Assembly: GCA_018817425.1 (NCBI GenBank)
Contig: JAHITX010000079.1
Coordinates: forward strand, 1 to 64,000
Reading direction: 5' to 3'
DNA: 64,000 bases
DNA from: Pseudomonadota bacterium
GTDB lineage: Bacteria; Desulfobacterota; Desulfobacteria; Desulfobacterales; RPRI01
In this document: piece after piece, positions 2,045 to 4,655 of the stretch
Numbering within the stretch: position 1 is the stretch's first letter
How the letters are laid out: every line of letters starts with the position of its first letter
The notes under the pieces: model-generated
What the model saw: the letters and a program-made list of their open reading frames with translations, nothing else
What the model was told of the DNA's origin: nothing
The model's database searches: none
Made by a program: the position numbers and the translations under genes

Positions 2045-3013
2045 TCAGCGGCCTCTTCCTCCGCCTCCACCACTGCGTCCGCCACCAAAACTACCGCCAC
2101 CAAAACTACCGCCACCAAAACTACCGCCACCGGAACTACCGCCACCGGAACTACCACTGCCGGAACTTTCAAAACGGCTGTCATTGTTTCGCATTCCCAT
2201 AGGCTGCATATTATTATTCGGAAAATCATCATATACACGGCTTGGGTTGGGGTGTAATTCGCGGATACCCATTTTGCTGTGAGCTTGCTGAACCGTTTGC
2301 TTGCCGTTTATTACTTTAAGTGCTTCAGAAGTAATTTTAGGATTTTCAATTTTATTTGCTTTGGCAGCTTTGATCATCATGGATAGCTCAAGAGGAAAGC
2401 TGTGAAAATGATTATGTTCAATACCTGAAGAAGCGATATGGCCGGCCTCTTCGGGGTTCAGACCGGACTGTTTTGCAACTGCATAAAAGGTCATTGCTTC
2501 AAGTTTTTGTTTGGAAGAAGCTGACTTCCAGGATGTATAAAGACTGTTCATTTCAGTTTCAGTTAATCCGGCAGATAGCAATTCGCTAATCCTGGCATTT
2601 ATCCGGTTTCTTTCCGGGGGTGTAGAGGTTTCGCGGTTATGAGGTTCACCTTCGGTCAGTTTGTTGACAAAGCGCAATTGATGTAAAGTCTTGCCTAAGG
2701 CTGCATCAATTCTTTGTGCATCAACATTTTTAGCCACTCCTTCTTCAATTTTGTTAACCATTACCGATGCAGGAAGTTCTTCCTGAGTGGCTGTGCGTAT
2801 CTGTTTAATCCAGCGTATTTTATTTTCATTACGTAATTTATGCCTGTTGGCGGCAGACAATATTCGGCCCAGGCTTTCATCATCTACACCCGCAGACTTT
2901 GCCAGGCGAATCTCGTTATCAAGCATAGTATTATCTTCGGCACATACGTACCAGGGTACGATGAGCAAAAACAGGATAAACAGTAATAAACTATATCTAA
3001 GTTTGGTTTTCAT
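2045..3013 (-). CDS. secreted protein with Gly/Ser/Phe-rich repeat tail
   Basis: Function unknown. The 322-residue product starts with a signal peptide (Lys-rich start, hydrophobic stretch to about residue 25, VCA/E cleavage-like site). The middle is charged and helical, and the last ~45 residues are low-complexity Gly-Ser-Phe repeats (GGGSFGGGSFGGG) ending in a Gly/Arg-rich tip. It is the last gene of an apparent operon with the ECF sigma factor and the CBM48 anti-sigma: its ATG overlaps the end of the anti-sigma gene by 17 bp. This suggests it is an envelope protein made under the same control. A proline-free middle and Gly-rich tail resemble surface or adhesive proteins only loosely. Confidence 0.75.
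   Translation of the reverse strand: MKTKLRYSLLLFILFLLIVPWYVCAEDNTMLDNEIRLAKSAGVDDESLGRILSAANRHKLRNENKIRWIKQIRTATQEELPASVMVNKIEEGVAKNVDAQRIDAALGKTLHQLRFVNKLTEGEPHNRETSTPPERNRINARISELLSAGLTETEMNSLYTSWKSASSKQKLEAMTFYAVAKQSGLNPEEAGHIASSGIEHNHFHSFPLELSMMIKAAKANKIENPKITSEALKVINGKQTVQQAHSKMGIRELHPNPSRVYDDFPNNNMQPMGMRNNDSRFESSGSGSSGGGSSGGGSFGGGSFGGGSFGGGRSGGGGGRGR
2081..2155 (-). repeat. 15-bp tandem repeat, five units, inside the Gly-rich tail
   Basis: Five head-to-tail copies of a 15-bp unit (plus strand GCCACCAAAACTACC). Three units are identical and two carry the change AAA to GGA. Each unit encodes five residues of the GGSFG/GGSSG type, so copy-number change keeps the reading frame. Confidence 0.9.
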
Positions 3014-3593
3014 CTGAATATCCGTTACTAATTGTTAGGATGGAGTTTCGGGTTCCAAAACCGTCATCCTGCTCCCACAATGCGCGGGGGTCAGCAATGA
3101 TTTTATTATCGTCAACAACAAAAGCATAAGTGTGGCGACCGGGTTGTATCTTAACGGAAAGTTGCCATGTGCCATCTGTCGGGTTTTTTTGCATATGATA
3201 ATGTTCCGGTTGCCAGTGATTAAATGACCCAATAACTGCCACTGTTGTGGCTGATGGGTAATCTAAAATAAAGTTAACAGTTTTGATGTTGGCCGTTTTT
3301 GAGTTTGCAGTAAGAGGATAATCTGTGTGAGATATCCAAATTGTTTTATACACAAATAGAAGACCTACTATTAATATTATAGTACCGGCTGCATGAAGTG
3401 GGCGAATGGAAATAACTGTGAAAGGAGCTATTAGAAGACGTAAAATTTTTTGCCATAAGCTAACCTGTTTAGGCGAAATTCGCTGCATAACCGCTTGCGT
3501 AAAGTTACCTGGCGGTTCTTCATCCGGCAGGCCGGCAATCATGCCGGTTAGATAATTTATGTCAGAATTTTTATTTAAATCTATGTCTTTCAT
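2997..3593 (-). CDS. membrane anti-sigma-like protein with C-terminal CBM48-like domain
   Basis: Likely regulator of the ECF sigma factor encoded directly upstream. About 90 N-terminal residues are cytoplasmic, with a short acidic segment and a PPGNF...VMQRI stretch like that of zinc-free anti-sigma factors. One transmembrane helix follows (around residues 70-90, IILIVGLLFVY). The periplasmic part is an AMPK/CBM48-like beta-sandwich: VAVIGSFNHW, then GTWQLSV, GRHTYAFVVDD, and ADP...DDGFGTRNS. The family binds alpha-glucans. I place the start at the ATG at 3593, because the TTG at 3602 sits only three bases from the AGGA. The start is just inside the sigma operon (6 bp from the sigma stop). 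Anti-sigma function is inferred from position and topology. Confidence 0.75.
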   Translation of the reverse strand: MKDIDLNKNSDINYLTGMIAGLPDEEPPGNFTQAVMQRISPKQVSLWQKILRLLIAPFTVISIRPLHAAGTIILIVGLLFVYKTIWISHTDYPLTANSKTANIKTVNFILDYPSATTVAVIGSFNHWQPEHYHMQKNPTDGTWQLSVKIQPGRHTYAFVVDDNKIIADPRALWEQDDGFGTRNSILTISNGYSDENQT

Positions 3594-3598
3594 ATTTT

Positions 3599-4183
3599 TC
3601 AATTGTCCTGTTTTCCTTTGGATACCTGCTTAATGGCAGAAAAAGACGATTGAAACAGATCACGCAGCTTTTCTAACCCTCTGCTTATACGCATTTTTGC
3701 ACCACTTGTAGAAACCCCGAGAGCCTTGCCGATATCTCCCATCGGCAAACCTTCATGGTACCTCAATATCAATGCTTCCCTGTAATTATGGGGCAATTGA
3801 TTCAGACAGTTTTTCAAACGCCTTGTATCCATTGAGACTATAATCCGATCTTCTGCATAAGTCTTTTCTTCCGGACAGTTTTCCATCAACCGGCCGACTT
3901 CTTCCGCATGTTTTGTGGCGTGTTTTTGTTTGCGCCAGCTGTCCCGGGCTAAATTTAACGCAATTGCGTACAGCCAGGGGAAAAAACTTTCACTTAGTCT
4001 GAATTTTTCAAGATTTTTATATGCTTTTAAAAATGTTTCCTGAGCCAGGTCTGCAGCATCTTCCCTGCTGCCTGTCATGCGAAACAAAAGGTTGAAAATC
4101 GGGCGCTTATACCGGTTTACCAGAATAGCGTATTCTTGTGCATTTCCATCCAGTATGGATTTTATCAGCAGGGTTTCTTTCAA
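3599..4183 (-). CDS. ECF-type RNA polymerase sigma factor
   Basis: A sigma-70 family factor of the extracytoplasmic-function group, 194 residues, the normal length. Region 2 contains DAADLAQETFLKAYKNLEKF with the core-binding and -10 recognition helices. Region 4 contains LPHNYREALILRYHEGL and a helix-turn-helix (IGKALGVSTSGAKMRISRGLEKL). It is the first gene of a three-gene minus-strand run with the CBM48 anti-sigma and the Gly-rich secreted protein. A lipoprotein that repeats the CBM48 domain lies just upstream on the same strand. The regulon is unknown; autoregulation is likely but no promoter was recognised. Confidence 0.93.
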   Translation of the reverse strand: MKETLLIKSILDGNAQEYAILVNRYKRPIFNLLFRMTGSREDAADLAQETFLKAYKNLEKFRLSESFFPWLYAIALNLARDSWRKQKHATKHAEEVGRLMENCPEEKTYAEDRIIVSMDTRRLKNCLNQLPHNYREALILRYHEGLPMGDIGKALGVSTSGAKMRISRGLEKLRDLFQSSFSAIKQVSKGKQDN

Positions 4184-4304
4184 ATTCAGTACTCACGCCA
4201 GAGAAAAACATTTCACAGTTTAAAATTATTTTACACTCCACAATATATACGTTGTTTAATGAATATTGGTCACATTCAGGTTTTTTGATAATGAGCGATA
4301 ATTC

Positions 4305-4655
4305 TTAATTAACTATAATCACTGAATTTTGTCTGTCGAAACCGTCAGTTTCTGTAAAAAGAGCATTTGGATCAAGCACCCATTGCCGGCTGTTAATGAT
4401 AAATGCATAGCGATGGGTTCCGTGTGGGAGAATCAATTGGATTGACCATACCCCGTTTTGCTTATCAAGGCAGTGAGTATTTTGTGACCATTTATTAAAA
4501 TCACCGGCAAGACAAACCGATTGAGCCTGACCTTCATATTTAAACAGCATAGTATGGGTATGATATTTCGCGACAAGAAATGCGATACTGCTGCAACCGC
4601 TAATCGTCATTATAATAATAAGTATAAAGATCCTTAAACAGATAGATCCAGTCAT
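4305..4655 (-). CDS. lipoprotein made of one CBM48-like domain
   Basis: A 116-residue lipoprotein: hydrophobic signal followed by the lipobox TISGC (Cys near residue 21), so the mature protein is lipid-anchored. The rest is a single glycogen-binding-like E-set domain: VCLAGDFNKWS, NGVWSIQL, GTHRYAFIIN, then DPNA...TDGFDRQNSV. These segments line up with the periplasmic domain of the anti-sigma protein at 2997-3593, including the final DGF(D/G)xxNSxI. It lies 122 bp upstream of the sigma gene on the same strand. A role in sensing a glucan, or in competing for it, is inference. Confidence 0.8.
   Translation of the reverse strand: MTGSICLRIFILIIIMTISGCSSIAFLVAKYHTHTMLFKYEGQAQSVCLAGDFNKWSQNTHCLDKQNGVWSIQLILPHGTHRYAFIINSRQWVLDPNALFTETDGFDRQNSVIIVN

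Follow-up and report, generated by a model that had tools for sequence, protein, structure and literature searches.

We have studied a group of four genes in a 64,000-nucleotide stretch of DNA from a Pseudomonadota bacterium of the order Desulfobacterales (positions 1 to 64,000 of contig JAHITX010000079.1, which we call the window). The draft source genome consists of 147 contigs with 5,123,197 bases. All four genes are open reading frames on the minus strand, transcribed in the order P0001, P0003, P0002 and P0004. The first one (4305..4655) codes for 116 amino acids, with a hydrophobic N-terminus that runs up to ISGC. Judged by eye and from hydropathy it is a bacterial lipoprotein, with a signal peptide and a lipobox ISG/C at residues 18–21; residues ~35–114 form a CBM48 domain (Pfam AMPK1_CBM 45.8 bits and CBM_48 35.4, both over the cut-off). 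P0003 (3599..4183, 194 amino acids, TTG start) consists almost wholly of sigma-70 regions 2 and 4 (Sigma70_r2 68 bits, r4_2 47.5, over the cut-off), the composition of extracytoplasmic function (ECF, group 4) sigma factors: it scores 99.2 bits against the sigma70-ECF model TIGR02937, which has a cut-off of 42.9. Five bases separate its stop from the ATG of P0002 (2997..3593). This protein has a single hydrophobic segment (residues ~67–87, by eye and hydropathy), followed by another CBM48 domain at residues ~105–190 (AMPK1_CBM 40.2 bits, CBM_48 38.1, also over the cut-off). The gene of P0004 (2045..3013, 322 amino acids) overlaps the end of P0002 by 17 bases. Its product starts with a hydrophobic segment and has a Gly/Ser-rich C-terminal tail, with 24 Gly among the last 50 residues and RGR at the end; no Pfam family matches it over the cut-off. 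An earlier inspection of the letters, the sequence-only reading, had described a sigma gene with a CBM48 lipoprotein before it, a single-pass CBM48 membrane protein after it and then a Gly-rich secreted protein. All these elements are found in our analysis.

The nearest copy of this module is in a genome of the same genus (G006, contig JAHIFE010000125.1), the sole close relative in a scan of genome contigs. It has all four genes, with 66–81% identity. Diverged copies are found in dozens of genomes, so that the set of four genes is not due to chance. With a profile of P0004 that leaves out the tail (A1, five seed rows, all from this same kind of locus), the secreted family is detected in 36 of the 296 phylum genomes and in 46 of the 194 from the order. 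We have read each of the 36 loci from the phylum; the rows in these and all other counts are related. Local profile searches found an ECF sigma factor adjoining the secreted family in 34 of these loci, and 35 have a membrane CBM48 protein. Of the three missing genes, two are missing where a contig ends (L131, L137) and one is truly absent (L139). A search for the same neighbourhood, which the sequence-only reading had proposed, finds in this way a recurrent module. The strictest companion of its CBM48 membrane protein is the secreted family, a fact which that reading had left unnoticed. At L139 (4249-5668) the secreted family adjoins a membrane CBM48 protein which has no anti-sigma part. The pair follows an aminotransferase-like gene, and no sigma gene was found nearby.

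The loci can be divided into four types by gene order. Type I, lipoprotein, sigma, anti-sigma and secreted protein, includes the window, L034 and L113–L115, together with L035 and L116, which have no lipoprotein. In type II the order is sigma, anti-sigma, lipoprotein and a secreted protein with a Gly-rich tail (L036, L038, L039, L041, L042, L044, L047, L117–L128 and L149; L036 has no lipoprotein and L149 is cut). In type III the sigma gene is followed by a short secreted protein and the CBM48 protein, in type IV by the CBM48 protein and then the short secreted protein; L140 and L145 have the type IV order with a wider spacing. Three loci are classed as others (L139, L141, L148). A tree of 44 sigma factors agrees with this division: types I and II each form one group with strong support, type III forms one group with weaker support and type IV requires two changes. 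Overall there are four label changes, the minimum possible.

A two-part site is found upstream of the sigma gene, TGTGAC[CT]-N15/16-CGTA in type I and GTAAC-N16-CGTT in type II. In the window the predicted ECF promoter is TGTGACC-N16-CGTATA (4246..4274, minus strand), 62 bases before the sigma start; read along that strand from 4274 to 4246 it is TGTGACCAATATTCATTAAACAACGTATA. The sigma start has a promoter-like site close to it in 5 of the 7 type I loci and in all 20 type II loci, against 0.03–0.06 expected per scanned 280 bases. The same scan of 280 bases gives none in the 15 type III and IV loci which have a sigma gene. Loci fetched later repeat the type-specific picture. In the whole source genome there is one exact match to TGTGACY-N16-CGTATA, at the sigma operon. 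By sequence, these motifs place a predicted ECF-type promoter ahead of the sigma gene, as in sigma factors which regulate themselves. At least eight type II genomes (G150, G172, G173, G355, G469, G476, L221, L225) have the promoter a second time, directly ahead of the secreted gene. Sites with one mismatch are at control level in the source genome; a wide regulon based on them was dropped as a chance result, and exact sites alone were used.

The scan for the type II site also led to a second secreted protein, which is small, has repeats like AADQTRDRDRKRDGSCK and is met near several modules. We call it the DGSC protein: in the source genome its repeats are DQDRLKDGSC-like units with one cysteine each. 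It has no Pfam or NCBIfam match over the cut-off. Its gene in the source genome is on a separate contig (C7:108650-109096, equal to L220:2651-3097) and is 68% identical to the copy in G006. The pattern GTGACY-N15/16-CGTAHA is matched twice in the source genome: one match is the sigma promoter, the other lies ~100 bases ahead of the DGSC gene. The sites do not outnumber those of a reversed control (8), and it is their positions that are informative; the pattern was fixed after the DGSC site had been seen. When 14 DGSC genes were scanned (G389 and G487 were left out), nine had a promoter-like site. It is of the kind GTGAC..CGTA in five type I genomes (G000, G006, G395, G411, G468) and GTAAC..CGTT in four type II genomes (G025, G236, G274, G364), so that the promoter kind matches the sigma type in all nine (Fisher 0.008, kinship ignored). 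DGSC proteins are found in 13 genomes of the order, and 10 of these also carry the secreted helical family (Fisher 4e-5, again with kinship ignored). Taken from these sites, the probable regulon in a genome of 5.1 Mb has just two members, the sigma operon and the distant DGSC gene. The sequence-only reading had missed this tie to a second secreted protein.

A secreted Gly/Pro-rich peptide of 54 amino acids is found next to the DGSC gene and is conserved in two genomes (L119:3340-3504, L125:6983-7147). Several other genes lie near promoter-like sites. In L190, L191 and L207 a site just past the secreted gene is followed by a small Gly-rich secreted protein, as named by eye. At L208:2789 and L209:2411, on the minus strand, a type I site in the same place is followed by a gene that is TPR-like by eye. 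Isolated type II sites start 73–124 bases before genes with an N-terminal signal-like segment in L197, L198 and L203: their products are, as named by eye, secreted EF-hand-like, acidic-tail and DUF2202-like proteins. The other five of the eight loci with isolated type II sites (L196–L203) were dropped for lack of a signal-like gene; L196 has no site under a stricter pattern.

The nature of P0002 is best seen by comparison with its relatives. It adjoins its sigma gene and has the layout of class I membrane anti-sigma factors, which are treated in general in PMC7406223 (excerpts). Its sequence suggests a cytoplasmic N-terminus (~1–65, which includes DEEPPGNFTQAVMQRI), one membrane segment and a periplasmic C-terminus. 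In types III and IV a zf-HC2 domain, the zinc finger of this class, stands before the membrane helix; it is over the cut-off in L129, L132 and L140, just below it in L143 and not listed for L144. P0002 has no zf-HC2 Pfam match. A motif of the same kind is kept before the membrane, as seen by eye: DEEPPGNFTQAVMQRI in P0002 and EAPPFLKARIMARL in L132. Because the relatives carry a zinc-finger anti-sigma domain ahead of the membrane segment, it is well supported that P0002 is an anti-sigma factor by descent and layout, in a zinc-less form; judged against these sequences, it has lost the zinc finger which its relatives keep. The sequence-only reading had taken P0002 for an anti-sigma factor, and had pointed out that it would be mistaken if the relatives had no anti-sigma segment. 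They do have one: ahead of the membrane part there is either zf-HC2 or a cytoplasmic segment which is conserved.

The same reading had not recognized the arrangement among described anti-sigma groups. This agrees with the open-access literature searched, including the excerpts of PMC7406223 and PMC8103513, in which no CBM48 anti-sigma factor was found; the scheme of the ECF reclassification was not covered, and the sigma factor of the module may be one of its numbered groups.

We consider it rather likely that the module is an autoregulated switch, formed by an ECF sigma factor and a membrane anti-sigma factor, with a very small exported output. This proposal starts from features read in the sequences: the gene set and its recurrence, the ancestry of the anti-sigma factor, the promoter and its match to the sigma type. 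The sigma factor would be kept at the inner membrane by the anti-sigma factor. A signal from the envelope would reach the periplasmic CBM48 domain of the latter and the CBM48 lipoprotein, which is probably in the outer membrane. The freed sigma factor would then transcribe the operon of sigma factor, anti-sigma factor and secreted protein, as well as the separate DGSC gene, and the products of both would leave the cell. We think it most likely that the signal is some change in a surface layer built with the secreted proteins, sensed by way of a modified CBM48 face. A glycogen-type alpha-glucan of the canonical kind is less probable.

Some observations weigh against this reading. Genome-wide, the sites are not more frequent than in a reversed control (7 against 14, and 2 against 8). 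The pattern used for the DGSC gene was chosen with its site already in view, and the strict promoter is missing at 5 of the 14 DGSC genes scanned: three in module genomes (L113, L115, L223) and two in genomes without a match to the secreted family (L224, L227). A fifteenth DGSC gene (L225) has no site either. Many module genomes lack the DGSC protein, which is found in 13 of the 194 genomes of the order, against 46 with the secreted family. The zinc finger expected of a class I anti-sigma factor is absent from P0002. Finally, the sigma promoter of the window does not cover the lipoprotein gene, which in type II is part of the operon. In the window it starts 29 bases past the stop of an upstream ftsK gene (identified by eye). 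As it is placed before the promoter and close behind ftsK, the lipoprotein is probably made all the time. Downstream of the module there is a glycosyltransferase family 9 gene.

Another explanation extends the sequence-only reading: an alpha-glucan in the envelope would bind the two CBM48 domains and free the sigma factor, as has been proposed for the RsgI proteins which carry carbohydrate-binding modules for plant polysaccharides. The matches to the CBM48 family are over the cut-off. In AMPK beta1 the residues W100, K126, W133, L146 and T148 of the sugar-binding face are reported to contact the sugar, and their mutation to lower glycogen binding (excerpts of PMC2642990 and PMC6274970). We have aligned 81 CBM48 domains: 46 from module membrane proteins (L139 included), 23 from lipoproteins and 12 from stand-alone proteins of the phylum as controls. 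At the five positions P0002 has W, A, I, F and T. We also counted N150, which we take to be a further position of the sugar face. W100 is kept in all 12 controls and in all 46 membrane proteins, and N150 in 44 of the 46. The lysine of K126 is present in 9 of the 12 controls and in none of the 69 module domains, 46 from membrane proteins and 23 from lipoproteins. W133 varies: it is kept in 8 of 12 controls, in all 9 type III proteins, in 2 of 7 of type IV, in the 3 others and in 4 of 5 type I lipoproteins, but it is lost in all 27 anti-sigma factors of types I and II. P0001 keeps both W100 and W133. In the 18 type II lipoproteins W100 is never a tryptophan (13 Tyr, 4 Phe and one gap).

In this alignment the sugar face is thus degenerate rather than absent, and it has been altered differently in the several lineages. 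Such changes argue against plain glycogen-type binding in the type of the window and leave room for another ligand or for a protein ligand. Furthermore, no recurrent enzyme of glucan metabolism is found among the conserved neighbours listed. On balance we find a glucan switch unlikely, even with W100 and N150 so well conserved. From the sequence-only reading the CBM48 domains stand, with W100 and T148 kept in P0002; alpha-glucan sensing as it was stated there is supported only in part, since K126 and W133 are lost. The lack of a sugar-binding face, which it had named as an argument against itself, applies in part: the face is worn at those two positions and W100 is retained. Metal sensing of the CnrX type and lysozyme-type sensing were dropped, as the sequences gave no pointer to them and no search was aimed at them.

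If the ligand is a protein, the switch could be a feedback on export or assembly: the periplasmic CBM48 domains would bind the secreted helical protein or the DGSC protein instead of a sugar, and the switch would report whether its own product is present in the envelope or gone. The close companionship of the secreted family with the CBM48 protein fits this idea, as does L139, where the two are paired with no sigma factor found nearby. In type II the distances between anti-sigma factors and those between secreted proteins are correlated (Spearman 0.52; 3 of 999 permutations as high), but inheritance together in one operon could alone give this value. There is just one locus like L139, and the AlphaFold2 model of P0002, from a two-row alignment, is too poor to judge the binding face (predicted local distance difference test, pLDDT, 46.9). 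We give this feedback less than an even chance, somewhat ahead of the glucan. The pair in L139 and the degenerate face would also fit a surface complex of CBM48 and secreted proteins in which CBM48 is structural, nothing is sensed and the sigma factor is simply a local regulator. This is quite improbable: the CBM48 domain of types III and IV forms one protein with a zinc-finger anti-sigma part, as is usual for sensors.

The secreted protein itself gives a clearer model. P0004 without signal and tail is predicted as an all-helical repeat with 13 helices (pLDDT 82.7, predicted template modelling score 0.70). Foldseek finds no match to this model at E 0.001 or better, and the rows obtained with VIA-align are mostly designed helical repeats, with a best Z of 8.7, below the values common for helical models. 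A sequence profile compared with the PDB gives nothing convincing (best E 0.015). As far as the model goes, P0004 is a generic helical repeat.

Among known systems, the RpoE/RseA-RseB system has an ECF sigma factor, a single-pass anti-sigma factor and an accessory protein in the envelope. The module shares these three features with it and with other ECF/class I pairs, but here the sensor is CBM48, the accessory protein is a CBM48 lipoprotein and the anti-sigma factor of the window has no zinc finger. The glycogen-binding domain of AMPK beta belongs to the same family, PF16561, and shares the first tryptophan and the asparagine; in the module the domain is periplasmic, on an anti-sigma factor, and the equivalents of K126 and W133 are lost (compared with the excerpts of PMC2642990 and PMC6274970). 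By analogy, the system most alike in its way of working is SigI/RsgI of Clostridium thermocellum. According to the excerpts of PMC6056542, SigI is an autoregulated alternative sigma factor in an operon with its membrane anti-sigma factor; RsgI spans the membrane once, between a part inside the cell and a sensory module on the extracytoplasmic side, which is often carbohydrate-binding, such as CBM3. The autoregulated sigma factor and the anti-sigma factor with one membrane segment and an outside sensor are common to both. However SigI is not an ECF factor, the RsgI modules named in that work belong to other CBM families, and the targets of SigI are saccharolytic genes, whereas those predicted here are secreted proteins of low complexity. 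P0002 has no RsgI_N among its Pfam matches up to E 1. With an ECF sigma factor, no RsgI_N match and a different module family, our module is not a member of the SigI/RsgI group.

CBM48 would be a type of anti-sigma sensor for which we found no description in the open-access literature searched, here tied to a predicted promoter and a putative regulon of two genes. The module also gives a handle on two families without a curated model, the secreted helical-repeat protein and the DGSC-repeat protein. In types III and IV the module is followed by a gene for a multiheme cytochrome, with 3 to 22 CxxCH motifs, in all 15 loci where the contig continues; the same holds for L138, on another contig of the genome of L137. 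Two of the cytochromes have family matches. No multiheme cytochrome was found in the fetched flanks of 27 type I and II loci. If the regulation is true, these sister modules would tie envelope sensing to extracellular electron transfer. We tentatively suggest, with less confidence than for the switch itself, that envelope switches of this kind extend throughout the phylum: CBM48 would have been remade into a two-membrane sensor which controls a layer of secreted proteins (helical-repeat, DGSC and Gly/Pro-rich) and, in the other branch, multiheme cytochromes.

The modules which precede a cytochrome gene are L129–L136, L138, L140 and L142–L147; further genes with CxxCH follow in some of them. 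The source genome has a third CBM48 protein (L001:1438-1728), of 96 amino acids and by eye without a signal peptide, encoded directly before a PfkB-like sugar kinase gene.

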